In this document: piece by piece, positions 6,301 to 60,922 of the stretch
How positions within the stretch are numbered: position 1 is the stretch's first letter
Layout of the letters: the number at the start of each line of letters is the position of its first letter
NCBI GenBank assembly: GCA_002010075.1
Contig: MTMG01000019.1
Span: forward strand, 1-61,926
Direction of reading: 5' to 3'
Length of the DNA stretch: 61,926 nt
Source: Methanomicrobia archaeon JdFR-19
GTDB taxonomy: Archaea > Halobacteriota > Methanosarcinia > DSM-18856 > Methermicoccaceae
The notes under the pieces: generated by a model
The model's input: only the letters and a program-made list of their open reading frames with translations
What the model was told of the DNA's origin: nothing
The model's database searches: none
Made by a program: the position numbers and the translations under genes

Positions 6301-6891
6301 TTAAGACTGTTCAAACCCATTGTTAAAAAAATTATCCATCAGTTGTGTAAGGAGTTGATATGCTTCAACTACCTTGGGACTGCCACATTTCTTTATTATA
6401 TCATGCTAACCCATTACCCTCTCTACAAGAGATTCATCTTTGAAAACTCTATAACGAGTTGCAAGAATACAAGCCTCCACCAGCACAGAAAATCCCCTGT
6501 TATATGCCCTTGGATGCCCCAAAACCTCATCTTCAATTACTTCCACATCGAACACCACAGAACTCGAAGAGGAGGACTTCTCTGAACAACGTAGATAGAG
6601 CCTTGCATCTGCATCGAGAAGTGGCAAATTTATACCCTCTACTGTTTTCCAACCAGCCCATTCCTCTGGGTCAGAGAGCGAGCATATCACGAACAGCAGC
6701 GGGTCATAGGTTATGTGGGCAACTGCATAAGGAACTTCAAGAATGTTTGAGAGAGTGTGAGAACCCCGATATACTCTCAATCTTGCCTTTCCTTCCTTGA
6801 GTATTATGCCCATCGGCGAGGCATTGGGCCTCCCGTCAGACGAGACCGTGGTAAGAATCACCTCATTTATGCCATCTGAAAGTAATCTCAT
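6301..6891 (-). CDS. DUF447 family protein, with in-frame TAG codon
   Basis: A 196-residue flavin-binding split-barrel-type protein (DUF447) common in methanogens, function unknown. It starts MRLLSDGINEVILTT and has SDGRPNASPMGIILK, as in FMN-binding split barrels. A TAG occurs in frame at codon 162 (6408-6406). If TAG ended the protein the C-terminal helical region of the family would be lost. Reading through gives 34 more residues (starting HDIIKKCGSPKVVEAYQLL) to a TAA at 6303-6301, closing the gap to thioredoxin. ATG 6891 overlaps the CitG-like stop as ATGA and has a GGGGGGATG ribosome site. The next gene upstream is the usual neighbour of this family. Confidence 0.85.
6406..6408 (-). other. 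In-frame TAG codon (codon 162 of DUF447 gene)
   Basis: The context is GGT-TAG-CAT on the minus strand. The same frame stays open for 34 codons and keeps the family's C-terminal helix. I infer that it is decoded as an amino acid, probably pyrrolysine. Confidence 0.75.
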
Positions 6892-7784
6892 AGTCTCATC
6901 CCCCCCATGAGAGCAATAAAAAGACCAGCACACATGATGTCTGCAACACTTCCTGGATTTATCCTCCTACTTATCAACTCCTCATCAAAGCTCTGAATGA
7001 GATTTCTTGCATTTTTGATGTCGGCTTTCTCAATAAACTCAACCAGATTTTCTGCTCTCTTTTTGGTCCACTCTGCTACCTCATCCCCAAATTTTATTGT
7101 GATAAAAGTATCACCGTATTTTGCAAGAATCTTCAAAAACGTGATGGTTATTGCATCCCACAGCGATCTCTGATTTCTCTCCTCAGCTATCAGCTTCGCA
7201 CTCTCAAAAGAAACAGAAAATCCATTCACCCATTCCCTTGCAACCATATCATAATGTGCGGACATCTCGATGAGGTCATAAAGTGTTAGTTCCCTCTTTA
7301 CAATCTCTTCTGCGGTCTCATCGTCTCTCAAATCAAGGGAGGGAACACTCTTCACTTTGACCCTTGCAAACCTGAAGGCCTCGTAGAACTCAAGTGCATC
7401 GAGCATGTCTGTTGATCTGACGATTCGTTGTGTGGTATCTCTCAAAACCAACATGCTCCCCTTACTCTCAAGCTTTCCATTCTCTACCAACTCACCAGCA
7501 GCCATTGAAAGAGGTATCAAGAGAAGGAATGTTCCAAAATGTGTGTTGCCTCCGCTATGCCATTTCATACTCTGAAGAACCGCATCCTTTATCAGTGTCC
7601 CAACGCCCCTTCTTGATTGAGATGCTCTTCTAAAAACAGGATAAACTCCAACCGCAGAAGCAAGAAAGTGTTCAAACTTTGTATCCACATACTCATGAAA
7701 TCTATCAACATTACCTGGCTTTGTTGGTGTAGATACCTCAAGAAGCATTGCAAGCTGGGCACACTGTGCTACCATTTCAGACAT
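6888..7784 (-). CDS. Triphosphoribosyl-dephospho-CoA synthase (CitG/MdcB)-like protein
   Basis: A 298-residue protein of the CitG/MdcB superfamily, which in bacteria makes the prosthetic-group precursor of citrate lyase from ATP and dephospho-CoA. The conserved features are the start QCAQLAMLLEVSTPTKPGNV, GVGTLIKDAV, and GGNTHFGTFLLLIPLS. No citrate lyase genes are near, as is usual in methanogens, so the archaeal substrate is unknown; a nucleotide-type transfer is expected. ATG 7784 follows GGGGAGTGAG closely, and the gene begins only four bases after the taw1 TGA. It overlaps DUF447 by ATGA, implying translational coupling. A longer start at 7838 would run into taw1. Confidence 0.82.
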   Translation of the reverse strand: MSEMVAQCAQLAMLLEVSTPTKPGNVDRFHEYVDTKFEHFLASAVGVYPVFRRASQSRRGVGTLIKDAVLQSMKWHSGGNTHFGTFLLLIPLSMAAGELVENGKLESKGSMLVLRDTTQRIVRSTDMLDALEFYEAFRFARVKVKSVPSLDLRDDETAEEIVKRELTLYDLIEMSAHYDMVAREWVNGFSVSFESAKLIAEERNQRSLWDAITITFLKILAKYGDTFITIKFGDEVAEWTKKRAENLVEFIEKADIKNARNLIQSFDEELISRRINPGSVADIMCAGLFIALMGGMRL

Positions 7785-7788
7785 GTTC

Positions 7789-8709
7789 TCACTCCCCAAT
7801 AAACATATCTTTACTGCCATCTTCTGTGAGTAATACAACTCTGCTTACTCTGGATTGGTCAGCAATCTTGTATCCAATCTTCTCTGCCAAGTGTGAGGCA
7901 AAATTCATAACTTCCTCATGAGATGGCATAGACCCCCTTGACAGTCTGTTCCTCGAATATCCGAGATGCATGTATGCTTTGACCTCTATGAAGTCGGGCG
8001 ATGCCAACTTCAACAACTAACCATAACTATGAATGTCAAAATCGTTCAGATTCTTTACAAGCGTTATTCTTACCGCTCTCTTAATCTCTCCGTTTCTATT
8101 CCCTATGACGTTTAAACTCTCTATGATGTTATCCCAGTAGTCCGAACGCGGACGACACACCCTCATATAAGTGTCTCTATCTGGAGCATCCAACGACAAA
8201 TACAACATAGTTGGACTAATCTTCTCAATCATTTCTGGATTGGTGGCGTTGCTCACAACAAAGGTTGTCATATCCCTTTCCTCAAAAATTTTGATAAGTT
8301 TGGGAAGGTGTGGATATAATGTTGGCTCTCCTATCAGAGATATTGCAACATGTTTGGGGGTAAGTGCCTCTTGAAATCTGTTCATATCTGTTTTGGGAGA
8401 GCCTTTGTATCCCCACAGTATCCTCTTATGTGCATCCACCACTCCCTCCGCAATCCTATCTGGTGAGTCCCACTCATCAACTCTGAAATCGAATTCAACC
8501 GGTCTCCAGCAAAATATACATTTCTGGTTGCATTCTATCGAAGGAGTCATCTGAACACATCTGTGAGACTGAATACCATAGAACTTCCCCTTATAACAGA
8601 ACTCGAGTCCTCTCATTGACTTCGATAACCAGAGACAGCCTTTCACAGCACTGTGAGAGCCAACAATCTGGTATCTCTGCTTCCTCAACCTTTTTAGATA
8701 CTCCTCCAT
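7789..8709 (-). CDS. taw1: tRNA 4-demethylwyosine synthase (Taw1), with in-frame TAG codon
   Basis: A radical SAM enzyme that builds the tricyclic wyosine core on guanosine 37 of tRNA-Phe from N1-methylguanosine and pyruvate. The SAM cluster motif is C60-x3-C64-x2-C67 (CNQKCIFC). The extra-cluster cysteines are C25, C38 and C51, as expected for archaeal Taw1. SLIGEPTLYPHL is the GEPT motif. An in-frame TAG stands at codon 231 (8019-8017); the frame then continues with the highly conserved tail FIEVKAYMHLGYSRNRL to TGA at 7791-7789. Without readthrough the essential C-terminus would be missing. Start ATG 8709 follows GGAG by about 11 bases; a GTG at 8718 is possible. Confidence 0.92.
8017..8019 (-). 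other. In-frame TAG codon (codon 231 of taw1)
   Basis: The context is GGT-TAG-TTG. It falls a few residues before the conserved FIEVKAYMHLGYSR segment, at a helix position that from memory of the family often holds a polar residue such as lysine. It is inferred to be a sense codon. Confidence 0.8.
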
Positions 8710-8711
8710 CC

Positions 8712-9755
8712 TCAGCACTCCAGAAGAGTGTCAACATCTATATATCTATCCACAAGCTCCTTCATGATTCTTGCCTTATCCGGGCTCTTTGCCTTTATAC
8801 CCGATAAAATTGAGTCAAGACACTCGATCATCCTGAGCATGTCCTATCTTGTATGGAGAACTGGGACTCCGCACTCTTCTGCATAACTAACCACGGCTCT
8901 GTCTGGGGGATGGTCGCCACTGACCACTACACACCTAACACAGCAACCGATTGCAGTCGATATTATGTCCGAGCGCCCACTTCCTGTAACAATAACCGCA
9001 TCCTTTCTTCTTCTGAAACTTCTCACAGAACTCTCCGAGTCAAGGGCGCCCACAACAAGAGTTCCAACCTCCCCATCAAGATTGTGGTGTGCAGATAATA
9101 CATCTGCTCCTGTTAGCTCGACGATTTCATTGACTGTCACAGTCCTGAGTCTCGGCTCAGATGGTATTATAGATGCCATTGGAACTTCAAGAGTGTCCAA
9201 GAATCTCTCCATCCATTCGACTCTATATGATGGTACATCGTTAACAACAACACCACACACCCTAATCCCCTCGTACCTCAAAAGGGACAGCGATGTGAGA
9301 ATGTCATCCTCAACAAAATCTTTATCAGACGCAACAAGAACAACCGGCAAATCAAGAAGTTTTGCGACTTGAGAATTCGAGAGACCGATGACAGACCCAG
9401 TACCGAGACCTCCAGCCCCCTCAACAATCACAAAATCCTTTCCTGAACTTATCTCTGCAAAAGCTCTTGTTATGGTACTTTGAAGGTTTGTTATCTCACC
9501 CTTTATCGAACTCTGAATTAATTTCTCAGTATATGAAATCGGAGATATCATTTCCAAAGGCTCAGAAAATGAGAATAATCCTTTCATGACAAGAGCATCT
9601 TCATCCACAAGCTTCTTTTCAACCTCAACAAGAGCGTTGCCAATCGGTTTCATATAACCAACTTTCTTACCCCTCTCAATGAGTACTGAGATCAATCCAA
9701 CACATATTGCACTCTTTCCCGACTTCGTCATATTCGAGACTAACATCACACTCAT
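8712..9755 (-). CDS. BioD-like P-loop / DRTGG-domain protein, with in-frame TAG codon
   Basis: A 347-residue protein with an N-terminal dethiobiotin-synthetase/CobQ-like P-loop domain (SNMTKSGKSA near 7-16; VIVEGAGGLGTGSV near 110) and a DRTGG-type regulatory domain (about 195-300), as in the N-terminal half of some phosphotransacetylases. A sensor or regulatory role in acetyl-CoA metabolism is likely, since it lies 9 bases after the ADP-forming acyl-CoA synthetase. TAG is codon 304 (8846-8844), right after GVPVLHTR. The frame then runs 43 codons through a helical tail (DKARIMKELVDRYIDVDTLL) to TGA at 8714-8712, so that taw1 follows at once. The tail makes the operon spacing normal. Confidence 0.85.
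8844..8846 (-). other. In-frame TAG codon (codon 304 of BioD/DRTGG gene)
   Basis: The context is AGA-TAG-GAC. The frame remains open to a TGA adjoining the taw1 start. It is inferred to be read as an amino acid. Confidence 0.7.
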
Positions 9756-16156: not shown

Positions 16157-16172
16157 AAATTTATTTATAAGA
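16157..16172 (+). promoter_or_regulatory. TATA box of the archaellum gene cluster
   Basis: An A/T tract, aaaatttatttataag, stands about 30 bases before TTG 16199. It is a good BRE/TATA-like element and likely starts the fla transcript. A ribosome site TAGGGGAT follows. Confidence 0.5.
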
Positions 16173-16198
16173 TGAACAAAGTGATGTAGGGGATATGT

Positions 16199-17236
16199 TT
16201 GGGCATTCTTGATAAACTATCAAAATTGATACCAAAAAAAGAGAAAGAACTCGAGTTTGATGTTTCACCTGAAGAGATGGAAGAGGTTCCTGGAGATATT
16301 TTCGGAGATGAATTTGAAATTGAAGAAGGTGGTTTGGGAGAGATCCGAGAGGAGGAAGTGAGCGGAGGAGGAAAGGGAGAGGAAAGATTTGAAGAGCTTG
16401 AAAGTAAGATTTCAAAACTTGAGATGACGATAACAGGTATGCAGAGAGAACAAGATGAGGTTAAAAAATCGCTGGAATCCATAAATCAGAGCATGGTTGA
16501 ACTTCTTTCTCTTTACGAGGTTGTCTCAAACCAAATAAACCCATTCGTGGGGGACGGTGATAAAGCTCCAGTGGTAATGGAAAAACTTGACAACATGGAA
16601 AAAAGAATCAACGAGTTCGAAGAGATTGTAAACAATATCAAAATGGATTTGGAAACAAAGAGGACAGAGGACAAAAGTTTAGAATTTGATACACTCTCTG
16701 AAGCTTTTGGAACACTGAGTGAAGAGGTTGACAAACTCTCCAAGAAAATTTCCGAGATTGAAGTAGAGATAAAATCTGAGAAAATGGAGAGTAAAGAAGT
16801 AAAAAGAGAGAATGTGAAGGAAAATATAGTTATTACTGCTGATTCTGTGGTGGATTCTGGAGAGGTCTCCCAGACGCCGACCAAACCAAGGCTGAAGAGA
16901 ATAGAACTGACGCCGACCAATGTCGTGGTACTTCTAAAATGGCTCGAATTTCTCATGGAGAGAGTGGGAAGGAATAACCTGATAGAGGTGCTCGACTTCT
17001 ATGTAGAAATTGGATGGATCAGTGAAGAAGTAGCATCAACATTGCTCTCTTATGCAAGAGGGATTGAGTACTATACTGAAAAACATGAGTGGAGGCTTCT
17101 ATCTGATGACCACACAAAATCTCTCCTCTTCATAGAAAAACTCTCAGGGAACAAAATCGACCACTCAACCCTTCGCAGAGTTGAGAGAGAGATATCAAAA
17201 TTGAGTAGGGGAGTTGAGGAGATATACGGACTTTAA
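16199..17236 (+). CDS. Archaellum protein FlaD/E (ArlD/E)-like
   Basis: A 345-residue component of the archaellum motor ring that links motor and chemotaxis proteins. The first ~65 residues are acidic, about 65-220 is coiled coil (KISKLEMTITGMQRE, then LSEEVDKLSKKISEIEVEI), and the last ~120 residues form the FlaD/E domain (RIELTPTNVVVLLKWLEFL ... RGVEEIYGL). The coiled coil plus D/E domain in one chain resembles the fused FlaC/E or FlaD of other euryarchaeotes. The start is TTG 16199 (MGILDKL), supported by GGGGAT. An upstream ATG at 16184 would be in frame only by reading a TAG at 16187-16189. It ends TAA. Confidence 0.88.
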   Translation: MGILDKLSKLIPKKEKELEFDVSPEEMEEVPGDIFGDEFEIEEGGLGEIREEEVSGGGKGEERFEELESKISKLEMTITGMQREQDEVKKSLESINQSMVELLSLYEVVSNQINPFVGDGDKAPVVMEKLDNMEKRINEFEEIVNNIKMDLETKRTEDKSLEFDTLSEAFGTLSEEVDKLSKKISEIEVEIKSEKMESKEVKRENVKENIVITADSVVDSGEVSQTPTKPRLKRIELTPTNVVVLLKWLEFLMERVGRNNLIEVLDFYVEIGWISEEVASTLLSYARGIEYYTEKHEWRLLSDDHTKSLLFIEKLSGNKIDHSTLRRVEREISKLSRGVEEIYGL

Positions 17237-23635: not shown

Positions 23636-24667
23636 ATGGTGTTGGGTATGACTTCCGAAATGTTGAGAGAATTCACCCAAAAGATAATTGAGGATGGGAG
23701 GCTCTCAGAAAAAGAAGCTGAAGAAGCTCTGGTTGAGATCATGATAAGGGGGAGTGATGCACAGATAGCATCATTTTTGACGGCTATCTATCTAAAAGGC
23801 ATCACACCAGAAGAGATTGCAGGATTTGCACATGGAATGAAAAAATTGTGTGTGAAAATCCGACCAAAGGTAAGGAAGCTTGTAGATACGTGTGGCACTG
23901 GAGGGGATGGACTATCCACGATAAATATCAGCACCGCATCAGCCATACTTGTCTCTGCGTGTGGTGTTCCCGTGGCGAAACATGGCAACTACTCATTCAC
24001 ATCAAAATGCGGTAGTGCAGATGTTCTGAAGGCACTTGGTGTCAAAATAGACCTCGAACCAGAAACTGTCGAGAAATCAATAGAGCAAATTGGAATCGGC
24101 TTCATGCTTGCACCACAATTCCATAAATCGATGAAAAGGGTTGCCCATATAAGAAAGGAATTGGGATTTAGAACAATATTCAACATTCTCGGACCTCTTA
24201 CCAACCCAGCAAATGCAAACATACACCTCATGGGAGTATACTCTGAAGGATATGTATGTCTGCTTGCGTAGGCTATGAAAAAGATGGGCATAAAGAGGGG
24301 GATGGTCGTACACGGTGGTGGAATGGACGAGATTTCAAACTTTTCAGAGACCAGCGTATGTGAGGTCAGAAATGGTAGAATCGAAAAATACACACTGAGT
24401 CCCGAGGACTTCGGTCTGAAAAGAAGTTCTCTTTCAGAGATTGTTGGCGGAGAGGTCGAGAGGAATGCGAACTCCATTCTGAGCGTGTTTTCTGGAGACG
24501 GCGGTGCCAAAAGAGATGTCATACTGATGAACGCATCTGCAACCCTCTATCTCTCCTCCGAAGTATCTGATTTCTGTGAAGGGGTTGAAGTTGCTTCTAA
24601 CATCATCTCTGATGGTCTTGCACTTCAAAAACTCAACGAGATGAGAGAATTTAGCAGGGAGATGTGA
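23636..24667 (+). CDS. trpD: Anthranilate phosphoribosyltransferase (TrpD), with in-frame TAG codon
   Basis: A 343-residue enzyme that adds phosphoribosyl to anthranilate, the second step of tryptophan synthesis. Motifs are DTCGTGGDGLSTINIST (PRPP site, about 84-100), AKHGNYSFTSKCGSAD and FNILGPLTNPA. TAG is codon 212 (24269-24271), immediately after GYVCLLA. The same frame continues with AMKKMGIKRGMVVHGGGMDE and the rest of the C-terminal domain to TGA at 24665-24667, which abuts trpF. TrpD cannot fold without this half. Start ATG 23636, or ATG 23648 if leaderless from the second TATA. It is first in trpDFEGCBA. Confidence 0.95.
24269..24271 (+). other. In-frame TAG codon (codon 212 of trpD)
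   Basis: The context is GCG-TAG-GCT. It falls in a helix between conserved blocks, where from memory most TrpD proteins have a glutamate or lysine. It is inferred to be translated. Confidence 0.85.
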
Positions 24668-30105: not shown

Positions 30106-30677
30106 AAGGCATCATCAAAAACTGGGAGGAGCTTTACAAAAGACCTCTTTGGGGTTGGGCAAACTCTACCGAGATCATCGAGACTATTCGACCCTATGTA
30201 AGGGGCAGGGTGCTTGATTTGGGGTGTGGTGAAGGGAGATATCTCATCCAGCTCAACAACATAGTGGGTCTTGATATATCAAGAAACGCGATTACAAGAG
30301 CTAGGGCAAGAGCGAGGATATATGGAATCAATGCAGAATTCGTCTTAGGGGATGGGATGAACATACCCTTCAAAGACGAGACGTTTGAATGTGTATTATG
30401 TATGGGAGTTCTACAGCACTTTCTGGAAAACGAGAGAAAGATGGTAGTAGATGAGGTTTATCGGATTCTAAAGCCATATGGGATATTTGTGGTCAGTGTT
30501 AGTAGGGTTGGAGATTCAAGATTTGGTAAGGGGACTTGTATTGAGAAAAATACATTTGTGAGGGGTGGAATACCTCACCACTACTTCACACATGATGAGT
30601 TAAATGAGCTTTTGAGAGACTTCGACATCTTAATTTCAAACGACAAAATTATGATTGTCTGTGCAAAATGTCCCTGA
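30072..30677 (+). CDS. SAM-dependent methyltransferase (class I), substrate unknown
   Basis: A 201-residue class I methyltransferase. SAM-binding motif I is VLDLGCGEGRYLIQL (about 47-61), followed by IVGLDISRNAI (motif II) and FECVLCMGVLQHF (motif IV-like). The last ~50 residues have HHYFTHDELNELLRDFDI, seen in TRM9-type and related tRNA or small-molecule methyltransferases. ATG 30072 overlaps trpA by 34 bases, so it is translated from the trp message. It overlaps the convergent cofE by 29 bases. The substrate cannot be assigned. Confidence 0.85.
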   Translation: MFERFKKKDRIKGIIKNWEELYKRPLWGWANSTEIIETIRPYVRGRVLDLGCGEGRYLIQLNNIVGLDISRNAITRARARARIYGINAEFVLGDGMNIPFKDETFECVLCMGVLQHFLENERKMVVDEVYRILKPYGIFVVSVSRVGDSRFGKGTCIEKNTFVRGGIPHHYFTHDELNELLRDFDILISNDKIMIVCAKCP

Positions 30678-31389
30678 TGATGTCTTCTTTTTTGGGTCTG
30701 AAAATATCAACCGCCTTGCCATCTCCCATCAGATGAGAGAGACCACGAACAACAACCGCAGGTATCCTCCAGTTCCCCTCTCCCATGAGGATGTTGGCAA
30801 AACCAGCAAGCTCATCGGCAACTACTTCTCTTGTAACTCGAAGTTCCTTTCCATAACAGTCCCGTCTGCCCCGCCAATCAACAACCGAAGATACACCAGA
30901 GCAACCAATTGCTACTCCACACTGCCCTACTCTGAAAGGGCGCCCACAGGTGTCTGTTATCACAACTCCCACCTCCTTATGAGTCAGCTCCATTATTCTG
31001 TCCCTTATTCGCTCTGCACTCTTGTCTGGGTCAGATGGCAGAAGCAATGCATATCCCTCCTCAACATTGCTCTCATCCACACCTGCATTCACACATATGT
31101 GTCCTTTTCTGCAAACAAGTAAAAACGGCTTTTCCAGAAGTATTTCATCACTCTCGTCAAGAACTATCTGCACAAACTCTGGTCTCTTATCGATTTGACT
31201 TGCTATTTCTTTTGCTCTCGGGGTGGGATGCACATCTGAAAGTCTAACAACTCTACCCTCACTCTTCGAAACAATGGTCGATGCAATCAGTACGATATCA
31301 CCATTCTCAAACTCGAAATGATTCGAAAGTATCTCTCCAACATCATCCCCCCTACTGAACATTGGAAGATTCTTTATGGGTATAGCCAC
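30649..31389 (-). CDS. cofE: Coenzyme F420-0:L-glutamate ligase (CofE)
   Basis: A 246-residue GTP-dependent ligase that adds glutamates to F420-0, finishing the hydride carrier of methanogens. Family marks: GDIVLIASTIVSKSEGR, GHICVNAGVDESNV, LLPSDPDKSAERIRD, VGVVITDTCGRPFRVGQCGVAIG and DELAGFANILMGE. It starts with GTG 31389 (AGGTC just upstream), 23 bases after the porB stop, so it probably belongs to the por transcript. It ends TAA. Confidence 0.95.
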   Translation of the reverse strand: MAIPIKNLPMFSRGDDVGEILSNHFEFENGDIVLIASTIVSKSEGRVVRLSDVHPTPRAKEIASQIDKRPEFVQIVLDESDEILLEKPFLLVCRKGHICVNAGVDESNVEEGYALLLPSDPDKSAERIRDRIMELTHKEVGVVITDTCGRPFRVGQCGVAIGCSGVSSVVDWRGRRDCYGKELRVTREVVADELAGFANILMGEGNWRIPAVVVRGLSHLMGDGKAVDIFRPKKEDIIRDILHRQS

Positions 31390-31412
31390 GACCTAATCGT
31401 TTTTCATCTCCT

Positions 31413-32300
31413 TCACTCAAGCCCATATTTCTTAACGTTGAGGTCTGCCATCCTTTGTAGTTCAGACAATACTTCTTTTCCTTCCTCCCTTACAAAAAGA
31501 TGCTTAAATCTTCCTTGAACTTTTAGATACTCCTCAACTGGCTTTCTCTCCTTGATTTTATAGACTTTTGTAAGAACTCCATTTTCAAACTCGATGAGCG
31601 GATACAACCCTGTCTCCACTGCCAGCCTTGCGACTTCAACCGCCAATTCACCTGAAAAGTGCCAACCTGTACAACAGGTAGAATGAATCTGAACATATGT
31701 GGGGCCTTCGATCTCAACAGCTTTCTTAACCTTTCTTATCACATCACGTGGATGGGCAATTGACGCAGTTGCAACATATGGACAGCCGTGTGCAACCGCT
31801 ATCTCTGGCATATTCTTTTTGTAGAGTTGCTTACCGAGTGAATATCTACCAGGAGGCGTTGTGGTGGTGTATGCGCCATACGGTGTTGCTCCACTCATCT
31901 GAATGCCGGTGTTCATATATGCCTCATTGTCATAGCACACATACGTAACATCATGCTTTCTGTCCCAAACACCTGATATCGCTCCAAAGCCAATATCGAA
32001 AGTTGAACCATCGCCCGCTATGACGAGAACTTTGGTATGATCATTGCCAAGAGCTCTGAGGGCTCTCTCAATCCCAGCAGCAACAGATGCTGAGTTCTCA
32101 AACAACGAATGAATCCAAGGAACTTCCCAAGCACTCTCTGGGTATGGTGTTGTGAAGACTTCGACGCACCCAGTTGGACTGCACACGATAACATCGTCTC
32201 CCGCACCCTCAAGAATCAGTTTAACGGCAATTGCCGCTCCACATCCCCCGCACCCTCTGTGTCCGGGGGCGAGCTTGGATATCAACGGTTTCTTTGCCAT
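31413..32300 (-). CDS. porB: Pyruvate:ferredoxin oxidoreductase beta subunit (PorB)
   Basis: A 295-residue TPP-binding subunit of the four-subunit enzyme that interconverts pyruvate and acetyl-CoA plus CO2 with ferredoxin. Cysteines for the cluster lie in GHRGCGGCGAAIA (16-19) and near 208 in HSTCCTGW. The TPP motif is VLVIAGDGSTFDIGFGAISG, with DNEAYMNTGIQMSG. TAATG links it to porA. Ends TGA. Confidence 0.95.
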   Translation of the reverse strand: MAKKPLISKLAPGHRGCGGCGAAIAVKLILEGAGDDVIVCSPTGCVEVFTTPYPESAWEVPWIHSLFENSASVAAGIERALRALGNDHTKVLVIAGDGSTFDIGFGAISGVWDRKHDVTYVCYDNEAYMNTGIQMSGATPYGAYTTTTPPGRYSLGKQLYKKNMPEIAVAHGCPYVATASIAHPRDVIRKVKKAVEIEGPTYVQIHSTCCTGWHFSGELAVEVARLAVETGLYPLIEFENGVLTKVYKIKERKPVEEYLKVQGRFKHLFVREEGKEVLSELQRMADLNVKKYGLE

Positions 32301-33765: not shown

Positions 33766-34300
33766 GCACACCACCTGCAATTTCATAAGCTTTTTCAACC
33801 GCTTTCACATTTAACTCAGCAATTTTTCCAGAAAATCTGTGTGAAATAGATTTTTTAAGAGACTCAAGTGAAAGTAGTTTAGTAATAGATGCAAAAGCTC
33901 CAATTATCACGGTATTCACAATCGGCTTTCCAATGATATCAAGAGCTATTCTTGTGGCATCGAAAGTTACAACATTTCCATCAACTGGCAATTCATCGGG
34001 AGATAGAGCTGAATTCACAATAATGAGACCATCCTGCTTGATTCCTTTGCCAACATCCTCTGTTGCAAGAAGTGTTGGATCTTGGACTATGACGTAGTCG
34101 GGATTGTATATCTGGCTCCTTATTCTTATTTTCTTTTTGTCGATTCTAACAAAAGCCATCACCGGAGCTCCTCTTCTCTCAACCCCAAACGAAGGAAACG
34201 CTTGAGAGAACCAGCAATCCTCAAACGCTGCTTTTGCAAGAATTTCAGCAGCCGTCACTGACCCCTGTCCACCCCTGCCATGAATCACAATCTCCTTCAT
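33758..34300 (-). CDS. porG: Pyruvate:ferredoxin oxidoreductase gamma subunit (PorG)
   Basis: A 180-residue catalytic-domain gamma subunit that binds CoA. It starts EIVIHGRGGQGSVTAAEIL and has FPSFGVERRGAPVMAFVRI and NTVIIGAFASI, as in all PorG. A strong ribosome site (AAGGAGGTG) precedes ATG 34300. A TATA-like tttttattaaatg at 34330-34342 suggests that porGDAB-cofE has its own promoter. It ends TAA and overlaps porD by 8 bases. Confidence 0.95.
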   Translation of the reverse strand: MKEIVIHGRGGQGSVTAAEILAKAAFEDCWFSQAFPSFGVERRGAPVMAFVRIDKKKIRIRSQIYNPDYVIVQDPTLLATEDVGKGIKQDGLIIVNSALSPDELPVDGNVVTFDATRIALDIIGKPIVNTVIIGAFASITKLLSLESLKKSISHRFSGKIAELNVKAVEKAYEIAGGVHE

Positions 34301-34327
34301 CCCGCACCTCCTTAGGTGTGCCTATTT

Positions 34328-34343
34328 CATTTAATAAAAAAGT
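34328..34343 (-). promoter_or_regulatory. TATA box for porGDAB
   Basis: In the 51-base gap between the cyclodeaminase-type gene and porG, an A/T tract (TTTTTTATTAAATG on the minus strand) lies about 35 bases before ATG 34300, leaving a short leader with the ribosome site. Confidence 0.4.
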
Positions 34344-39406: not shown

Positions 39407-40462
39407 TCACTCTTTCCAAGTCTTTCCTCCGAGATACATCTTTATTTTATCCTCGGTGGATTGGTATAGTCTTGAAAATGTGATTAGTAGCCCTTTTGGA
39501 TGTTCTTGTCTTTCGATAATCTTATAACCAACTCCCTGTCTTCGAAGATGCTTGAAGAAACTCTGAGCTTCTTCCCAATCTTTCACAACAATGCTCATTC
39601 TTTCCTCTACCCTCCCCCCTTCTGCAACATCCCTGATTGCCCTGACCATCGGCAAAAGAATTGCTCTACCAATTCTCTCTGCCCATCTCTCAAGCTCTTC
39701 ATCCCCACACTCCACCGCCTAAAATCCCTCTCTTATCAATCTGCTGAAAATGAAGTCTCTTCCAAAATCGAATGGATACCTAAATGCATACTCAACATTT
39801 TCCACGTTGGTGGTGTGTGTCGTGTACTTAAGTTGTACTTTCATATCAAGAGACTTCATAACTATCCCCTCTCTGCCCTCGCAATTCAATCTCTCAACAA
39901 CCTCCATCACTTCTTCTCCATCGCTTGGTGAGAATTCACCCAACAACTCCACTTGCGGGATGTCCCATTCAGAAAGTAGTTTTCTTCTTTCGAGAAGGGG
40001 TAAGGGTTCATTTGTCTCCTTTCTTCGGATGTCAAATGCAAAAAAGCCAATATCCCTCACTGGATAATCCCTTGGTACGTATGGGTTGCGTAGCCCAGCC
40101 ATTTCAACACATAAAACGAGGTCTGGATTGCTCATAAGAAAATCGCACACGTTTTCGTCTTCCCTTACTCGCGAAAGAGTGAATGGACATATAAAACCGC
40201 CTCTCGTAAAAACGAGGACTTCACCAGACACTGCACACATCCTCACATTATATCCATCTATCTTTTCTTCCACACCAAACATACCATCAAAATACTTTTT
40301 AATTCCATTTTTTAACATTAAAATTCTCTTAATCTTTGGAAATCCTCTTATTAACTCCCCTCTAAAGTAGACAGTTCCTTTCTCGAGACCGTTTCTTGGT
40401 TTTGGGAGAATATACAGAGGTTCTCCCCTGAAATTATACTGTTCAAAATGTTTCAAATTCAT
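39407..40462 (-). CDS. ATP-dependent RNA ligase (Pab1020/Rnl3 type), with in-frame TAG codon
   Basis: A 351-residue archaeal RNA ligase of the Rnl3 family, which seals or circularises RNA. The nucleotidyltransferase core has the adenylated lysine in [12 protein letters not shown] (about 61-72; the family motif is EKxDGYN) and [20 protein letters not shown] is codon 248 (39721-39719) just after LIREGF. The frame continues for 103 codons with [20 protein letters not shown] and the remaining C-terminal domain typical of this family, ending TGA. The two halves read separately would each lack a domain. ATG 40462 overlaps the upstream subunit by ATGA. Confidence 0.9.
39719..39721 (-). other. In-frame TAG codon (codon 248 of RNA ligase gene)
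   Basis: The context is TTT-TAG-GCG. It separates the ligase core from the C-terminal dimerisation domain of one continuous frame. It is inferred to be translated. Confidence 0.8.
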
Positions 40463-40968
40463 TCATATCCTCCGCTTTTTCTCAGATACGACATTATACC
40501 GCCCGCCTGAAGAAGGTTCTGCATAAAATCTGGAATTGGCTTAAATGACAGCTCATAACCCTTCGTGATGTTTCTAATCTTCCCACCGTCTAAATCGATT
40601 TCAAGCTCGTCTTCCTTGTCAACATGAGCTAAGATACCTTTACACTCGACAATCGGGAGACCGACGTTAAAGCTGTTCCGATAGAATATCCTTGCAAACG
40701 ATTCTGCAACTATACAAGATATGTCGCATTCTCGAAGTACTCTCGGTGCCTGTTCTCTTGATGACCCACATCCAAAATTTTTGCCAGCAACCAAGATTGA
40801 ACCTGGATTCTTCTTGGCATCCTTATAGAAAGAAGGGTCTATCGCCTCAAATGTATGAACTGCCAACTTCCCTATGTCCAGCACATCATACTTGTACTTT
40901 CCAGAGATTATCTCATCTGTGTTGGTATCGTCTGGAAGAACTCTCAAAACTTTTCCCCTTATGATCAT
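40459..40968 (-). CDS. hacB: Aconitase-superfamily small subunit (LeuD/HacB type), second copy
   Basis: A 169-residue swivel-domain subunit, a paralogue of the gene at 3607-4092. It has [40 protein letters not shown] (about 59-77) and [21 protein letters not shown]. The specificity loop here is [11 protein letters not shown] in place of LVLNTPEEL, so its substrate likely differs. It is coupled (TGATG) to a large subunit, which makes this the complete enzyme. ATG 40968 follows GGAGGT. Candidates are aconitase-like, isopropylmalate or homoaconitate steps; sequence alone does not decide. Confidence 0.88.
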
Positions 40969-43435: not shown

Positions 43436-43726
43436 ATGAGTTTGGAAATCATCATATTTGTGATAGGTGTTATCTACGGGTATTTGAAACCAGGAAAACA
43501 GAGTAAAGCAGAGCTGTTCAAAAAGAGTATAATCTTGGGGATAATTCTTGGAATCATTTTTGCATTGGTGTTGGGAGTAATCTCAATGTTCCTCGGTTCG
43601 TTTGCTGGCAGTTTTATCATGGCTACAGGAACATTCATCGGAATTTTAATCAGTGTGATCTGGCTTGCATTATTCTTCATAGCGGGAGTTGCCATTGGAG
43701 ACTTCATTGAGAGCAGGACTAAATAA
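43436..43726 (+). CDS. Small membrane protein
   Basis: A 96-residue protein with about three membrane segments: IIIFVIGVIYGYL near the start, IILGIILGIIFALVLGVISMF in the middle (about 31-51) and the C-terminal FIGILISVIWLALFFIAGVA. Glycine-rich hydrophobic character is like small archaeal membrane proteins of unknown role. I do not recognise a family. ATG 43436 lies 9 bases after the kinase stop with GAGGTTTGG before it, so they are co-transcribed; a membrane partner for the soluble kinase is possible. It ends TAA, convergent with the UPF0200 gene. Confidence 0.7.
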   Translation: MSLEIIIFVIGVIYGYLKPGKQSKAELFKKSIILGIILGIIFALVLGVISMFLGSFAGSFIMATGTFIGILISVIWLALFFIAGVAIGDFIESRTK

Positions 43727-44261
43727 AGAAGTCTTTCACTTTATTCTTGAACTCCTGTAAGGAAGATTTGTTTTCTATCATGAAGTCTGCCGAGTTTATC
43801 GCATCTTCAAGACCCCATTTTTTCTCCCTCTCGTCCCTATTCCTCAGTTCTTCATCAGTAAAAATACGGTCAGGTCTCTCTCTCTTTCTTATCCTTTCCA
43901 ACCTATCAGAAAATGTGGCATCTATGTACACAAGAAAAAAGGAATCTGAAAACTCTTTTCTGAATAGCTCGACCTCTGCAATCCCCCTCACGCCATCCAC
44001 AACAACCAACTCGTGTCTCTTCAGCACATCCTTTACTCTGGGAAGGCATCTCTTTGCAATCGCATCCATCCCCTCTCTCATCCTCAACTCGTTTGCAACC
44101 CTCCCAACAACCTCATCGTACTCAGGAAGGCCCCTTCTCCTCACCTCTTCCCTGACAGCATCTCCCATATTCACAACTGGTATCCCGAGCGAAGAGGCGA
44201 CAGCAGATACCTCACTTTTGCCACTCGCAGGATACCCTACAAATGCTATGACCTAACTCAC
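43704..44261 (-). CDS. UPF0200 P-loop kinase (AAA/adenylate-kinase-like), with two in-frame TAG codons
   Basis: A 185-residue archaeal UPF0200 protein related to dephospho-CoA and adenylate kinases; substrate unknown. The P-loop is FVGYPASGKSE (7-17), followed by VVNMGDAVREEVRRRG and RPDRIFTDEELRNRDEREK. The only usual start codon that retains the P-loop is GTG 44261, which overlaps the radical SAM stop as GTGA and has GGAGG upstream. From it the frame reads M, S, TAG (44255-44253), VIAFVG. A second TAG at codon 181 (43721-43719) is followed by four codons and TGA 43706-43704. So readthrough is required for the N-terminus; the second TAG could be terminator or sense. Confidence 0.85.
44253..44255 (-). 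other. In-frame TAG codon (codon 3 of UPF0200 gene)
   Basis: The context is AGT-TAG-GTC. It lies between the only start codon and the P-loop, where the family usually has a lysine or arginine (from memory). It is inferred to be sense. Confidence 0.75.
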
Positions 44262-49072: not shown

Positions 49073-50064
49073 ACGAACTTGTTTGGGATGTGTATCAGCC
49101 CCTTTTTCGTCAACAAAACAATCGCTCTGTCTCTCACATCCTCATTTTTTCTAATCCAGACCGTCTCATATGTGCGAGGGTGCATTACCTCAATCGCACT
49201 TTCATCGCTCGATAGAACTTGTACCTCAACAACATCTCCAATATTCCCAATAACATCCAGCCTTTCATCCAGGGGCAAAACAACAACCTTTCCTCCCTCA
49301 ATAGGTGTTAAAGAGATTTTCTCACCAACATTCGTAACCACATACGTTCTTCCCTTCCACTCAACTACATCCCCCTTAGCCAACAATGGCAACCTTAACG
49401 AATACGTGACTCGGTAAACATCTTTCCCATCTTTCTTCCCAACCAAGGTTGCACTCGTTTTCACGCTTCCACCCATTTCAGATACCACATGAGAACAAAC
49501 CTTCTTTGCAATCTTTTTACTGCCGATGAAGATGTCAATACCGCCTCTGACATCAACCCTTTTTGTAATGAATGCCATTCTATCACTTTCGCTTGATATC
49601 ATATCTTTCACAAGACTCTCAGCCTGCAAACACTTCTCTCTGGATGGAGACCTTATCTGTATGATTGCCTCATAATATCCTCCCGCCTTTCTTGAACACA
49701 CATCACACACCTTTGGGACGAACTTCACAAAAAAATCAAACATCTTTTCTGTTTCAACTTCTCCTATCCTGTCAACAACTTTTCCGTGGACTCTGAAAAA
49801 ATTCTCAGACCTCTTCTCGATATCAAATTCCACATTCCTTCCCTCAAATGAGTCCATGACCATCTGATGCACAACTTCCTCCAAATCCTCAAACTTCATC
49901 CCATACATTGGACAGAATCCACATCTCGAACAGAACTCGACCGAGACAGATGATTTGTACTGTAGAGACGTAAGTTCAGCAACACACTGGCTACAAAGTC
50001 CAATTTCATGATTCTCCATAGCTTCTATCTCTCGCCCGCATCTCGGACACACATACTTCCTCAT
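49069..50064 (-). CDS. nmd3: NMD3-like ribosome/RNA-binding protein
   Basis: A 331-residue archaeal homologue of the eukaryotic 60S export adaptor NMD3; in archaea it probably acts in large-subunit maturation or quality control. Zinc-binding pairs are at C6/C9, C24/C27, C45/C48-51 and CDVCSRK (about 118-124). The C-terminal half contains an OB/SH3-like region ([13 protein letters not shown]). ATG 50064 overlaps the aroC stop (ATGA) with ribosome site GGTGAGG. Ends TAA. Confidence 0.9.
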
Positions 50065-51155
50065 ATCCTCACCGGATTGATGTATCCTCCAATTATCGAA
50101 TAGTCTGCAAGCACAACTGACATCATCGCTTCAGCAACTGGAACAAGTCTGGGTGGTATCGTAGGGTCATGCCTCCCATACACCCTTATTTCCACATCGT
50201 TTCCAAATTCATCCACAGTATGCTGTGGCTTTGATATGGATGGAGTCGGCTTAACAGCCAGTCTACAAACAATGGGCTCACCTGTACTGATTCCGCCAAG
50301 AATCCCACCGGCGTTGTTGGTGATGAAACAAGGTCTTCCATCACGCATCTCCATCCAGTCATTCATCTCACTGCCTTTCATGCGTGTGCATCCAAAACCC
50401 GCTCCAAACTCAATCCCCTTCACGGCACCTATGGACAACATGGCACACGCTATCTATGCTTCCAGCTTCTCAAACACAGGCTCACCGAGACCCGCTGGAA
50501 CACCAAATGCACATACCTCCACAATCCCCCCGACTGAGTCTCCTTCCTCTCTCAACTCCATTACAAGAGACTCCATCTTCTTTGAAGCTTGCGGGTCAGG
50601 ACATCTTAGAGGACTTTCTTCTGTTCTTTTGAAAAGTTCGTCTGGATCTTCAGGAATGTGTTCTGCCTCGATATCCCCCAAAGACCTGACAAAACCTATA
50701 ACCCTCACGCCCAATGTTGATATCAACTTTTTGGCAACCGCTCCTCCAGCCACTCTTCCCACTGTTTCTCTTGCAGATGCTCTCCCGCCACCTCTCCAAT
50801 CCCTCACCCCATACTTTTTCCAGTATGTGTAGTCTGCATGTCCGGGTCTGAAAACATGTTTTAGCTGTTCATATGGTGCTGAATCAACATCTTTGTTCCA
50901 GATGATCATGGATACAGGAGTTCCAGTTGTGATTCCTTCAAGAACACCTGAAAGAATTTCTACTTCATCTTCTTCGAGTCTCTGCGTTGTGTATGCACTT
51001 TTCCCCGGTCTCCTTCTATCAAGCTCTTGTTGGATATCTCCTTTGCTAAGTGGCAAACCGGCTGGGCATCCATCGATTACCACACCAACCGCTTTTCCAT
51101 GACTCTCTCCCCATGTCGTTATGCGAAATAACTTTCCGAATGTGTTTCCACCCAT
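50061..51155 (-). CDS. aroC: Chorismate synthase (AroC), with in-frame TAG codon
   Basis: A 364-residue FMN-dependent enzyme making chorismate from EPSP. It begins [35 protein letters not shown] and [22 protein letters not shown] are the catalytic signatures (key parts given). TAG is codon 234 (50456-50454), right after EPVFEKLEA. The frame continues [20 protein letters not shown], an invariant chorismate synthase block, with [11 protein letters not shown] and the final catalytic regions, to TGA at 50063-50061. ATG 51155 agrees with a TATA at about 51177-51187 (leaderless). It overlaps nmd3 by ATGA. Confidence 0.95.
50454..50456 (-). other. In-frame TAG codon (codon 234 of aroC)
   Basis: The context is GCA-TAG-ATA. 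It sits one residue before [13 protein letters not shown], a conserved helix in all chorismate synthases; from memory this position is variable and polar. It is inferred to be translated. Confidence 0.85.
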
Positions 51156-51173
51156 GATGAAGGGTAAGGCACA

Positions 51174-51192
51174 CAAAATATAAATCTATAAG
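51174..51192. promoter_or_regulatory. Divergent promoter aroC / leuA-type synthase
   Basis: The run cacaaaatataaatctata between the divergent genes gives a TATA for aroC about 25 bases before ATG 51155. On the plus strand it lies about 30 bases before GTG 51218, followed by the ribosome site GGTAAGGG. Confidence 0.45.
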
Positions 51193-53933: not shown

Positions 53934-54785
53934 TTAAAAAACCTTACTCGCTATCCTTGCCCCCTCCACAGAAGTGTAGCATGTGAAAACCTCACCAAAC
54001 TCGTGCAAACAATCCGGAGTCCCAAGAGCGACGACACATTCACCAAGCATAGCCATAAAAACATTTCCCCCCTCTGACTCAACTGCCTCAAACGCATCTA
54101 TAACCCACGGGGTCGCCAGCTCTGTTTTCATAGAAAACTCCTTCGACACGCAGAAAAAATTTTCAAGTGATGGAGACTTCATGAACTCTTTCAAGCAATC
54201 CTTTCCAATCTTCCCTATTTTATGCAATTCGGAGCTTGTGAGCACATCAGAAGTGAATATGGGGTCTTTCACAACATATGACACGATTCTCCTCTCCATG
54301 GGAACAGAATCCGCAACCGCCCTCGTCGGTGAGCCAGGTTTGATTCTGACAACAAGCCCCCCTAAACACTGCGCAACAACATCGCCAAGACCTGTTCTGC
54401 ATGAGACCTCTGCAATATGTGCGACATCACCAATCTCTTTCAAACACTTTGGGATCCCAAGAACACAATGTACCCCAAGAGATGTTGAGAGAGCACATGC
54501 TCCACTTACACCAAGACCGTATCCTACAGGTGCATCAGACCTCAAATTCACAACAACATCCTCTGCCCCCAACATATCTAGAACACTGTCAACAACATCG
54601 CATTCAAACTGCTCTCCCTAACACAGAGTTTTTCTATCACCCACACTTATTTCAGCATTCACTCCATGTGATAAAGTTATACCACAACCTATCGAACCTG
54701 TTTCAAGCACAGAGTCTGTTATGATTGGTGAGAAGAAACCACTTATATGGCAGGGTGAAAAGACTTCTACCCTCTTACTCTCCAA
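53934..54785 (-). CDS. Pantoate kinase (PoK, GHMP family), with in-frame TAG codon
   Basis: A 283-residue archaeal pantoate kinase, first step of the archaeal route from pantoate to 4'-phosphopantothenate for CoA. N-terminus: VFSPCHISGFFSPI and TGSIGCGITLSHG. TAG is codon 56 (54620-54618), followed in the same frame by GEQFECDVVDSVLDMLGAED and the GHMP ATP loop PVGYGLGVSGACALS (about 80-94), then SCRTGLGDVVAQ. The N- and C-parts each lack half of the fold without readthrough. TTG 54785 follows GGAAGGTGG and overlaps pyrC by 11 bases. Ends TAA. Confidence 0.88.
54618..54620 (-). other. In-frame TAG codon (codon 56 of pantoate kinase gene)
   Basis: The context is TGT-TAG-GGA. It falls between the N-terminal CHISGFF motif and the GHMP ATP loop of one frame. 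It is inferred to be translated. Confidence 0.8.
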
Positions 54786-56100
54786 TCCACCTTCCGCTTC
54801 CCTTCTCCGCAACTATCCCTCCCTCTTCCCGCTCGTCATATATTATCTCACCTCTCCTTATAACCAAGCTTGGAAAAATTGCATCAAAACCATCAAATGG
54901 ACTCCAACCTGCCTTTGAATGGAGTTTTTCGCCTTCAACCTTCCCAACACACTTCATATCGTACACACCAAAATCAGCATCATATCCCCCTTCTATCTTA
55001 CCCTTGCCAAGTATTCCGAAGATGTCAGCAACCCTTTCCGACGAGGCATTCACAACTCTCTCCAGAGGTATCATATTCCTCTTCACACATGCCAGCATCA
55101 AAGGGAACATCGTCTCAACCCCAGGAACACCGGGGGGCGAATCAAAAACATTATCTTTTTCAATTCTTCGATGGGGGGCGTGGTCTGACACTATGATATC
55201 AATGATGCCTCTCCTTAAATACTCCCATAACTTCTGAACATGAGTGTAAGGTCGGAGAGGGGGGTTCATCTTGCCCATTCCCCCCAGCCTCAGCATGTCA
55301 TCTTCGGAAAGTAGAAGGTGATGGGGGGTAACTTCACAGCTTACTTTCATTCCTACGTACTTCGCATTTCTAACCATACCGGCACCGTCCTCTGTACTGA
55401 TATGGCATATGTGAAGTTTAACATCGAGGTCCTTCACCATATTAACGACCTTAACAACCGCCTCTACTTCTGCCTCGGGTGGACGCATAAGACAGTGATA
55501 CATCGGATTCGTGGGGTCAAAACGAGATTCTGCTTTCAGTATTATTTCCCCATCCTCTGCGTGAATGCATGCAGGCAATGACAATTCTGATATCTTTTCA
55601 AGAGCTTTTCTTAATATGGTATTATCAAGAGGTTCTGCGTTGGTGGATGGTGCCATGAATATCTCGCCAAATGCAGTAATGCCACACTCCTTCAATCTTT
55701 CAAGCATTTCCAAGTTTGACGTGACTCCACCATTGATACCGAAATCAACTATGGAGAGTTTATTTGCCCTTCTCAGCTTTTTTCTGAATGCCTTTGGGTC
55801 GATGGTTGGAGGGTTCGTATTTGGGTGGTCTACTACACACGTAACCCCCCCTCCAGCAGCAGCACATGAACCAGTATACCAGTTCTCCTTGCTTGTAAAA
55901 CCTGGGTCTCTGAAATGAACATGTGCATCAATCACACCAGGCAACACAATCCTTCCACCCACATCTACAACAACATCAGCTTGCTCAGGAGGGGCTATCT
56001 TTGATAATTTGTATATCTTCCCATCCCTAACCGATATCTCAAGCTCCTTTAACTCACCATCATGGAATACCTTTGCATTCTTCACAACTATGTCAAGCAT
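54775..56100 (-). CDS. pyrC: Dihydroorotase (PyrC)
   Basis: A 441-residue zinc amidohydrolase that closes carbamoyl-aspartate to dihydroorotate in pyrimidine synthesis. Metal ligands and motifs: VIDAHVHFRDPGF (about 58-70), GGGVTCVVDHPNTNPPT, IHAEDGEII, HICHIST, VTPHHLLLS and SDHAPHRRIEKD. It belongs to the larger class typical of archaea. ATG 56100 lies about 26 bases after a TATA at 56122-56132, so it is leaderless. It ends TAA inside the pantoate kinase start. Confidence 0.93.
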   Translation of the reverse strand: MLDIVVKNAKVFHDGELKELEISVRDGKIYKLSKIAPPEQADVVVDVGGRIVLPGVIDAHVHFRDPGFTSKENWYTGSCAAAGGGVTCVVDHPNTNPPTIDPKAFRKKLRRANKLSIVDFGINGGVTSNLEMLERLKECGITAFGEIFMAPSTNAEPLDNTILRKALEKISELSLPACIHAEDGEIILKAESRFDPTNPMYHCLMRPPEAEVEAVVKVVNMVKDLDVKLHICHISTEDGAGMVRNAKYVGMKVSCEVTPHHLLLSEDDMLRLGGMGKMNPPLRPYTHVQKLWEYLRRGIIDIIVSDHAPHRRIEKDNVFDSPPGVPGVETMFPLMLACVKRNMIPLERVVNASSERVADIFGILGKGKIEGGYDADFGVYDMKCVGKVEGEKLHSKAGWSPFDGFDAIFPSLVIRRGEIIYDEREEGGIVAEKGSGRWIGE

Positions 56101-57761: not shown

Positions 57762-57770
57762 GGAAGGAAC

Positions 57771-59748: not shown

Positions 59749-59780
59749 GTTTTATTTCTCTGTACTGTCATCCTTCTCAT

Positions 59781-60638
59781 ATGCGGGGGGAAGCTATCGC
59801 TTACGGAGCGGGGACGATTGTAAATGCAATAGCTACTTGGAGGGGGGCTGCATTTGGCATAGAACTCAGGACAAAAGTATCGGTTGAATTAAGAGAGAGC
59901 GACGCCATGAAGATTGAAGGATATGCATATGGTGGGCAAGAAACATGTGATTCCTCTTTGATTGTGAGATGTGCTGAGCTTGTTCTTGAAAGATATGGGC
60001 TTTGCTGTGAGGGTAAAATACGCTCTGAGAGCGAAATACCCATAGGGAAGGGGCTCAAAAGTTCATCCGCAGCAGCAAACGCTGCAGTACTTGCAACTCT
60101 AAGAGCAATAAACGAGGAAGTGGAGCCTCTTGAAGTTGTGAAGCTCGGTGTACAGGGGGCAAAAGACGTTGGAGTGACGATAACCGGTGCATTCGATGAT
60201 GCTTGTGCATCTCTGCTCGGAGGGGTTGTGATAACTGACAACAAAAACTTGAAACTGATAAAAAGGGATGTTCTTGATTCAGATGTTCTGATATTTGTTC
60301 CAGAAGAAGTGTGCTTTACAAAGGATGTGGATGTTGAAGCATGCAGGTTAATGGCTCCTTTTGTGGAAGAAGCTTACAGAATTGCACTTGAAGGTAGATA
60401 CGAGAGAGCTATGACAATAAACGGACTGATATACTGTACCGCTCTTGGGTATAGAACCGATGTCTTGATGGGGGCGTTGAAGTATGGTGCAAGGGGATGT
60501 ACGCTCTCTGGTACTGGCCCCTCGTTCATAGCAATCCTCGGAGATGGGGCTAACACAGAAAAAATCTGTGAAAAATGGAAAGAAATTGGAGGGAATTTTA
60601 TTCATACGAAAATAAACAACAAGGGGGTAATAACTTGA
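59781..60638 (+). CDS. aroK: Archaeal shikimate kinase (GHMP family, AroK)
   Basis: A 285-residue GHMP-type shikimate kinase, unrelated in fold to the bacterial enzyme, phosphorylating shikimate on the way to chorismate. ATP loop: SEIPIGKGLKSSSAAANAAVLA (key part PIGKGLKSSSAAAN, about 91-104), and GARGCTLSGTGPSFIAI near the C-terminus. It is directly followed by aroQ, sharing its function. ATG 59781 is about 27 bases after ttttatttc (59751-59759), so leaderless. It ends TGA overlapping the aroQ start (TTGA). Confidence 0.94.
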   Translation: MRGEAIAYGAGTIVNAIATWRGAAFGIELRTKVSVELRESDAMKIEGYAYGGQETCDSSLIVRCAELVLERYGLCCEGKIRSESEIPIGKGLKSSSAAANAAVLATLRAINEEVEPLEVVKLGVQGAKDVGVTITGAFDDACASLLGGVVITDNKNLKLIKRDVLDSDVLIFVPEEVCFTKDVDVEACRLMAPFVEEAYRIALEGRYERAMTINGLIYCTALGYRTDVLMGALKYGARGCTLSGTGPSFIAILGDGANTEKICEKWKEIGGNFIHTKINNKGVIT

Positions 60639-60922
60639 GAAGCTTAGAAGAATTAAGACAGGAAATCGAGGAGATAGATAAAGAGATAATCAAGCTGATA
60701 GAACGAAGAACGATGTTAGCGAAAGATATAATAGAGGCAAAAAAGAAGCTGGGTCTTGGTCCAGTTGATAAAGAAAGGCGAGAAGACATACTCGGGAAGG
60801 TGAGTGTGATGGCTGTTGAGAAAGGGCTTGACCCTGCACTGATAAAGTAGATATTTGACACCCTCATTCAGATGAACGTTGAGAAGCAGAGGGAGTATCT
60901 TGGAGAGGGAAACCTTCCTTGA
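60635..60922 (+). CDS. aroQ: Chorismate mutase (AroQ type), with in-frame TAG codon
   Basis: A 95-residue helical chorismate mutase that makes prephenate. Helix 1: [22 protein letters not shown] with the catalytic Arg; [16 protein letters not shown] follows. TAG is codon 72 (60848-60850), right after DPALIK; the frame continues [18 protein letters not shown], the third helix with the catalytic Gln-type residues, to TGA at 60920-60922. Without readthrough this helix is missing. It starts with TTG 60635, overlapping aroK, with GGGGGTAA upstream. Read through, the gene overlaps the convergent purE by 59 bases. Confidence 0.88.
60848..60850 (+). other. In-frame TAG codon (codon 72 of aroQ)
   Basis: The context is AAG-TAG-ATA. 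It lies one residue before the third helix of the AroQ fold, where charged residues are usual. It is inferred to be translated. Confidence 0.8.

Follow-up and report, generated by a model that had tools for sequence, protein, structure and literature searches.

Proteome-wide decoding of UAG in archaea has reportedly been described in 2025 as a 'Pyl code', in which all TAG codons are said to specify pyrrolysine and UAA and UGA to be the sole stops. In archaea that carry the pyrrolysine (pyl) genes, UAG serves as both a sense and a stop codon according to a review (PMC2933860), and pyrrolysine is catalytic in methylamine methyltransferases (PMC8211752). In a Codetta screen, 9 archaeal stop codons were inferred to be amino acids (PMC8629427). 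The window analysed here is the whole contig MTMG01000019.1, 61,926 nucleotides (nt) long, of the metagenome-assembled genome (MAG) of the archaeon JdFR-19, and it carries ten in-frame TAG codons in nine genes. TAG is used as a sense codon, the genome has the pyl gene set, and clear TAG terminators are lacking in the sampled part of it. Throughout the genome of this lineage, UAG very probably acts as a sense codon and is read as pyrrolysine. Such a code would share with the reported Pyl code the proteome-wide decoding of UAG as pyrrolysine and the use of UAA and UGA as the only stops. Since a genome-wide archaeal code of this kind has reportedly been published, the present case is a further member rather than a new kind. 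Its own features, set beside that code, are a split pyrrolysyl-tRNA synthetase (PylRS), a changed motif in the release factor aRF1, likely fossils of TAG terminators and the lack of any detected mcrA.

The Methanosarcinaceae-like pylTSBCD genomes of the same class have the same genes and TAG-bearing methyltransferases (PMC2933860), with a difference in the PylS frame, which is fused and 406-553 amino acids long in those genomes and 282-286 amino acids long here. PylSn and PylSc as separate genes in JdFR-19 and Hydrothermarchaeum are already in print, and section 10 of that account, which covers the PylSn and PylSc class, makes no mention of genome-wide TAG use (PMC9499178). The Asgard archaeon Ca. 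Sifarchaeia likewise has a full pyl set in the absence of methanogenesis. However, unusually high UAG stop usage has been reported for it (PMC9723677), whereas no clear UAG stop was found here.

A first-pass annotation of the window had listed the ten TAG codons. All are present at the places given, and translation showed that every frame ends with TAA or TGA (Table 1). The family-conserved sequence described past the TAGs was confirmed for eight of the ten codons, which lie within a Pfam or NCBIfam match covering both sides. The exceptions are the two TAGs of the UPF0200 P-loop kinase (a family name carried over from that annotation), which lie outside the profile match and are both kept in the sister genome. 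The N-terminus of this protein is encoded by GTG AGT TAG GTC ATA, with the P-loop directly after; the next listed start, at 44174, would lose the P-loop. The second TAG of the same gene lies 4 codons ahead of the TGA. The pantoate kinase match, which stays below its family cut-off, is a weak point, and a second, upstream TAG in this frame (54813-54815) probably lies ahead of the true start. Three further N-terminal TAGs have an ambiguous start codon (Table 1), and the remaining TAG-open frames of the window were taken as spurious. The gene-calling script recovered seven of the nine genes, pantoate kinase and aroQ not being called.

Genome-wide counts were made on a sample of 517,327 bases in 24 stretches including the window, which is 40% of a genome of 1,288,683 bases in 27 contigs (89.75% complete). 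The published JdFR-19 assembly, from the Juan de Fuca Ridge flank, is given as 1,289 kb in 27 contigs with an N50 of 78,121 and a GC content of 43.2% (PMC5369317). Comparisons were made with a sister genome of the same genus (G001), an independent MAG that is 59% complete and carries pylS, and with a control relative without pylS (G006), whose proteins were the tblastn queries for the homology test. Strict alignments, with an identity of at least 35% and sites at least 10 positions from either alignment end, contained 18 internal TAG, 0 TAA and 0 TGA (129 alignments, 37,820 codons). The chance of 18 out of 18 being TAG is ~8e-14 under the stop-triplet shares from a crude both-sides coding test. 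With the same filter, the sister genome gave 16 TAG, 1 TGA and 0 TAA. Before filtering, 187 alignments held 28 TAG, 8 TAA and 5 TGA; most of the TAA and TGA were close to alignment ends or in matches with 26-28% identity. The earlier statement that internal TAA or TGA is never seen holds for the strict alignments.

Gene calling with table 11 ended 51 of the 543 genes in the sample at TAG. Continuations of at least 20 codons scored as coding in 37 of 37 cases after TAG, compared with 32 of 97 after TAA and 54 of 187 after TGA (Fisher p ~8e-18 for TAG vs. TAA plus TGA). The sister genome showed the same separation (39/39, 9/50 and 32/117, respectively), and in the control relative 18 of 84 TAG continuations scored as coding. 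Reading TAG as sense changed the total coding score by +436 here and +411 in the sister genome, vs. -1,726 in the control, and reading TAA or TGA as sense lowered the total in all three genomes. The called genes contain 97 TAG codons, distributed over 79 of 524 genes (15%); 14 of these TAGs fall within the first 15 codons of a gene, a region in which the start may have been misplaced, another 11 within the last 7, and the remaining 72 between. Scaled by the sampled fraction, ~240 TAG codons would be expected genome-wide. The sense use of UAG, proposed for the whole proteome from the window, also holds in the sampled stretches outside it.

Comparison of TAG sites with the sister genome showed 42 sites common to both, 7 only here and 10 only in the sister, in a set of uncleaned open reading frames (ORFs) of which some are spurious antisense frames. 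TAG exchanges between the sisters with CAG, GAG, AAG, TAC and the like. A clean exchange is found in ornithine carbamoyltransferase (named by eye), with AAG here and TAG in the sister. Past the TAG, substitutions at codon positions 1, 2 and 3 number 55, 41 and 192 (1,749 positions each, from the 11 genes out of 37 that had a match), and those upstream of the TAG number 21, 17 and 130 (about 990 each).

The ends of conserved genes were scored by the first stop met in alignments reaching near the C-terminus. The 110 ends in the sample, counted with regard to TAG as a possible terminator, comprise 68 TGA, 40 TAA and two in which TAG comes first, neither of them a clean TAG stop: one is UPF0200, with a TGA 5 codons on at the expected length, and the other is met only in the following gene, after a TGA has been passed. 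The sister genome gave 45 TGA, 28 TAA and 3 TAG among 76 ends; two of the three are the same cases, and the third lies 49 codons beyond the alignment. TAG codons accumulate close to the ends of genes. With the first 15 codons excluded, 11 of 83 TAGs are located in the last 7 codons vs. 2.1 expected (p 8e-6), the second UPF0200 TAG being an example, and this share of 13% compares with 2.4-5.6% for eight other codons checked. The pile-up likely consists of old TAG stops that do no harm because a TAA or TGA follows closely. In 80-kb samples from five other genomes of the class that carry pyl genes, 1/64, 1/57, 1/69, 7/58 and 0/60 called genes end at TAG, vs. the 51/543 here; TAG is mostly avoided in these genomes. 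In the one with 7 of 58 (G015, L208-L211), TAG appears to be a true stop: the median continuation is 9 codons, and counting TAG as sense lowers the total score, although the single long continuation scores as coding.

The pyl genes were found in the rest of the genome, as the first-pass annotation had anticipated for a pyrrolysine code: tRNA-Pyl(CUA), pylSn, pylSc, pylB, pylC and pylD are all present, and each of the proteins scores above its NCBIfam cut-off. The tRNA-Pyl (anticodon cta) identified by ARAGORN is 71 nt long with a 6-bp anticodon stem and is identical in both species. PylRS is encoded by two adjacent genes (PylS_Cterm, 298 bits, cut-off 178; PylS_Nterm, 91.8 bits, cut-off 51), which cluster with the tRNA gene on contig C6 near 53 kb. 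In the PDB it matches 3dsq and 2zni best (286 bits), both Desulfitobacterium structures, and the 2q7e group less well (192 bits). PylB, PylC and PylD reach 417.9, 335.0 and 218.3 bits, with pylB and pylC adjoining on C6 and pylD on C18. A search with the Pfam N-terminal domain of PylC gave 0 matches in the genome, though TIGR03909 confirms PylC. The sister genome also has pylSn, pylSc, pylB and pylC; PylD above the cut-off was not found in it (59% complete). MtmB (PF05369) has a TAG at residue 202, and the dimethylamine and trimethylamine methyltransferases (dimeth_PyL and trimeth_pyl) have one TAG each. A corrinoid protein (TIGR02370) and a RamA-type activase are located in the same region as the MtmB and dimethylamine methyltransferase genes. 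Two more MtmB homologues contain no TAG (Table 1). The pyl set and the TAG-bearing methylamine methyltransferases together indicate that Pyl-tRNA is presumably active in the cell. No mcrA (TIGR03256) was detected in either of the two genomes, whose completeness (90% here and 59% in the sister) leaves the absence unproven. The lineage is possibly a non-methanogenic methylotroph within Methanosarcinia. JdFR-19 is described as lacking HemBCD (PMC8351635).

No second CUA tRNA was found among the Rfam tRNA matches, 45 of 45 of which have a non-CUA anticodon. Three intron-bearing tRNAs were read by eye (Ser UGA, Ser CGA and Tyr GUA); a tRNA on contig C13, given as Glu(ttc) by ARAGORN, is by eye the intron-bearing Tyr(GTA). 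The residues of relatives could be aligned at 27 of the 72 middle TAG sites (R4, L3, D3, Q3, E3, T3, N2, K2 and one each of I, V, M and Y). A polar residue is found at 20 of the 27 sites vs. a background of 35% (p 4e-5), and G, A, S, P or C at none (p 1e-4), although the residue classes were picked after the data were seen and some of these alignments are below 32% identity. Among the strict-alignment TAG sites, one aligns with S here (pantoate kinase), and one with S and one with P in the sister. The varied, mostly polar sites would fit a long polar side chain at the protein surface rather than one canonical amino acid. Mostly because of the single CUA tRNA and its synthetase, the residue inserted at UAG is taken as pyrrolysine, which is the most likely assignment.

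One aRF1 above the cut-off is encoded in each genome. Work on eRF1 assigned the reading of stop codons to the YxCxxxF and NIKS motifs. Alignment of aRF1 with the 30 relatives whose loci were retrieved from a set of 60 genomes showed a D-to-A change at position 123 of the JdFR-19 protein. It lies within the YxCxxxF motif, which reads YHCASEF here and either YHCDSSF or YHCDSAF in the three relatives shown. Just after the NIKS motif, which is itself intact, V replaces T and M replaces Q. These motif changes are common to both species and absent from the 30 relatives; the protein as a whole has 28 such lineage-specific differences, these included. We hypothesize from this alignment that aRF1 may have weakened or lost its recognition of UAG.

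A pathway consistent with these observations would start with the synthesis of pyrrolysine by PylB, PylC and PylD and the charging of tRNA-Pyl(CUA) by PylSn and PylSc, followed by insertion wherever UAG comes. The UAG sites would comprise the methylamine methyltransferases, in which the residue would be catalytic, and dozens of other genes, including housekeeping genes. Outside the methyltransferases the UAG codons would occupy tolerant, mostly polar positions and be gained and lost by single-base drift. UAA and UGA would do the terminating, and old UAG terminators would persist in-frame a few codons before a back-up stop. A fuller proposal is evenly balanced in our judgement: that UAG has been fully captured in a methylotrophic Methanosarcinia lineage lacking methyl-coenzyme M reductase, that aRF1 has co-evolved to ignore UAG, that the TAGs before back-up stops are fossils, and that pyrrolysine is essential to core biosynthesis, beyond the use of methylamines.

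Several observations weigh against a genome-wide pyrrolysine code. At 12 sites of the uncleaned ORF set the sister has TAA or TGA, and the aligned continuations contain three gap runs whose length is not divisible by three, compared with none upstream. TAGs located just ahead of another stop could still terminate. TAG occurs at 0.64 per 1000 codons and is rarer than each of the 61 ordinary sense codons. TAG continuations of any length scored above zero in 45 of 51 cases; the other six are shorter than 20 codons and uninformative. The crude both-sides test, with 40-codon flanks, gave 38 TAG, 37 TAA and 33 TGA and was probably swamped by tandem same-frame genes, and an 8-nat threshold on both sides, which was too strict, gave 6 TAG, 1 TAA and 6 TGA. 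TAG was separated from the other stops by the later tests and not by these two crude first ones. The Rfam search missed tRNA-Pyl itself and ARAGORN covered half of the genome, so that an odd-shaped second CUA tRNA could escape. The size of the sample and a genome ~90% complete also limit the genome-wide claim.

Among other explanations, a dual meaning of UAG as described for Methanosarcina, read in part as pyrrolysine and in part as a stop, is unlikely. TAG would then be avoided at gene ends, and housekeeping products would be both full-length and truncated. The intact NIKS motif of aRF1 and the enrichment of TAG in the last 7 codons (11/83), where stopping is harmless, are consistent with it. 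However, chorismate synthase and other enzymes would be made at fractional yield, yet their TAGs are common to a sister species from another basin; the 110 conserved gene ends include 0 clear TAG terminators, and the stop-reading motifs of aRF1 have lineage-specific changes. Condition-dependent decoding has been reported in one bacterium (PMC8211752), and UAG could similarly act as a regulatory switch that restricts full-length enzymes to conditions of abundant methylamines and active pyrrolysine synthesis, as reported for Acetohalobium. We regard such a switch as quite improbable: drift fits better than regulation because the TAG carriers are unrelated genes and the TAG sites turn over between the sisters. 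Local cis recoding was ruled out by the number of unrelated TAG-bearing genes. No cis element is required for UAG decoding in E. coli (PMC8211752), and PYLIS has limited support according to a review (PMC2933860).

The absence of any dominant residue at TAG sites and the finding that the only CUA tRNA seen is tRNA-Pyl, with 45/45 other tRNA matches non-CUA, make it highly improbable that another suppressor tRNA inserts an ordinary amino acid (e.g. Gln, Lys or Glu) in the housekeeping genes, although the relatives' residues at these sites vary and CAG, GAG and AAG exchange with TAG between the sisters. Pseudogenes, sequencing errors or mis-assembly might be considered for a MAG of 27 contigs but are scarcely conceivable as the source of a pattern in which the strict alignments are 18 TAG:0:0 (sister 16 TAG and 1 TGA), 42 TAG positions recur in an independent MAG (some spurious ORFs included) and divergence past the TAG is biased to third positions.

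Under the preferred reading, UAG as a genome-wide pyrrolysine codon, the JdFR-19 genome would be a natural case of a stop codon that specifies a 21st amino acid in core metabolism. How UAG is divided between release factors and amber tRNAs, and whether pyrrolysine outside the methyltransferases is neutral or useful, would become testable questions. Fossil TAGs beside back-up stops would directly record a code change passing through terminators. Calling with table 11 would give a false end at TAG to the 51 genes in the sample noted above. Genetic-code expansion could also draw on the lineage's naturally split PylRS and on its aRF1 as a candidate for a UAG-blind release factor.

Table 1. TAG-bearing genes of the window and related loci (positions are those of the window unless a locus or contig is named)
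Feature	Position	Strand	In-frame TAG and following stop	Supporting detail
DUF447 protein	6301..6933 (start may be 6891)	-	TAG 6406-6408, then TAA	PF20766 match (145-196) spans TAG at codon 176; homologue alignment with internal TAG, 36.4% identity
taw1 / TYW1 tRNA-wybutosine radical SAM	7789..8718	-	TAG 8017-8019, then TGA	TIGR03972, 398.9 bits over 9-297; homologue alignment 54.7%
BioD-like AAA + DRTGG protein	8712..9755	-	TAG 8844-8846, then TGA	PF07085 DRTGG (210-313) spans codon 304; 43-codon continuation has coding score +10.3
trpD anthranilate phosphoribosyltransferase	23636..24667	+	TAG 24269-24271, then TGA	TIGR01245, 407.9 bits over 15-338; homologue alignment 49.5%
Pab1020-type RNA ligase	39407..40462	-	TAG 39719-39721, then TGA	TIGR01209, 365.4 bits over 22-350; TAG also at same site in sister genome
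UPF0200 P-loop kinase	43704..44261	-	TAG 44253-44255 (codon 3) and 43719-43721 (codon 181), then TGA	
aroC chorismate synthase	50061..51176	-	TAG 50454-50456, then TGA	TIGR00033, 473.2 bits over 17-361; homologue alignment 65%; TAG kept in sister genome
Pantoate kinase	53934..54839	-	TAG 54618-54620, then TAA	NF040725, 160.5 bits over 20-297 (family cut-off 380); homologue alignment 38.6%
aroQ chorismate mutase	60575..60922	+	TAG 60848-60850, then TGA	PF01817, 68.9 bits over 27-105, spans codon 92
Possible further in-frame TAG	16187..16189	+	Codon 6 of gene 16172-17236	Start codon ambiguous
Possible further in-frame TAG	31393..31395	-	Codon 8 of gene 30649-31416	GTG two codons later is an alternative start
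Possible further in-frame TAG			Codon 3 of gene 33758-34330	Start codon ambiguous
tRNA-Pyl	L033 8500-8570			
tRNA-Pyl, sister genome	L068 1210-1280			
pylS locus	L033 8388-9726			
pylB and pylC	C6 6.2-8.4 kb			
aRF1	L165 8485-9729	-		
MtmB homologue without TAG	L161 18666-19994			
MtmB homologue without TAG	L163 15176-16534			
Inverted repeat arms	3761-3911 and 40643-40793			

The window also contains an inverted repeat of 151 nt, with arms that are 75% complementary and 36.7 kb apart. The arms lie within two frames on opposite strands, which are probably paralogues.

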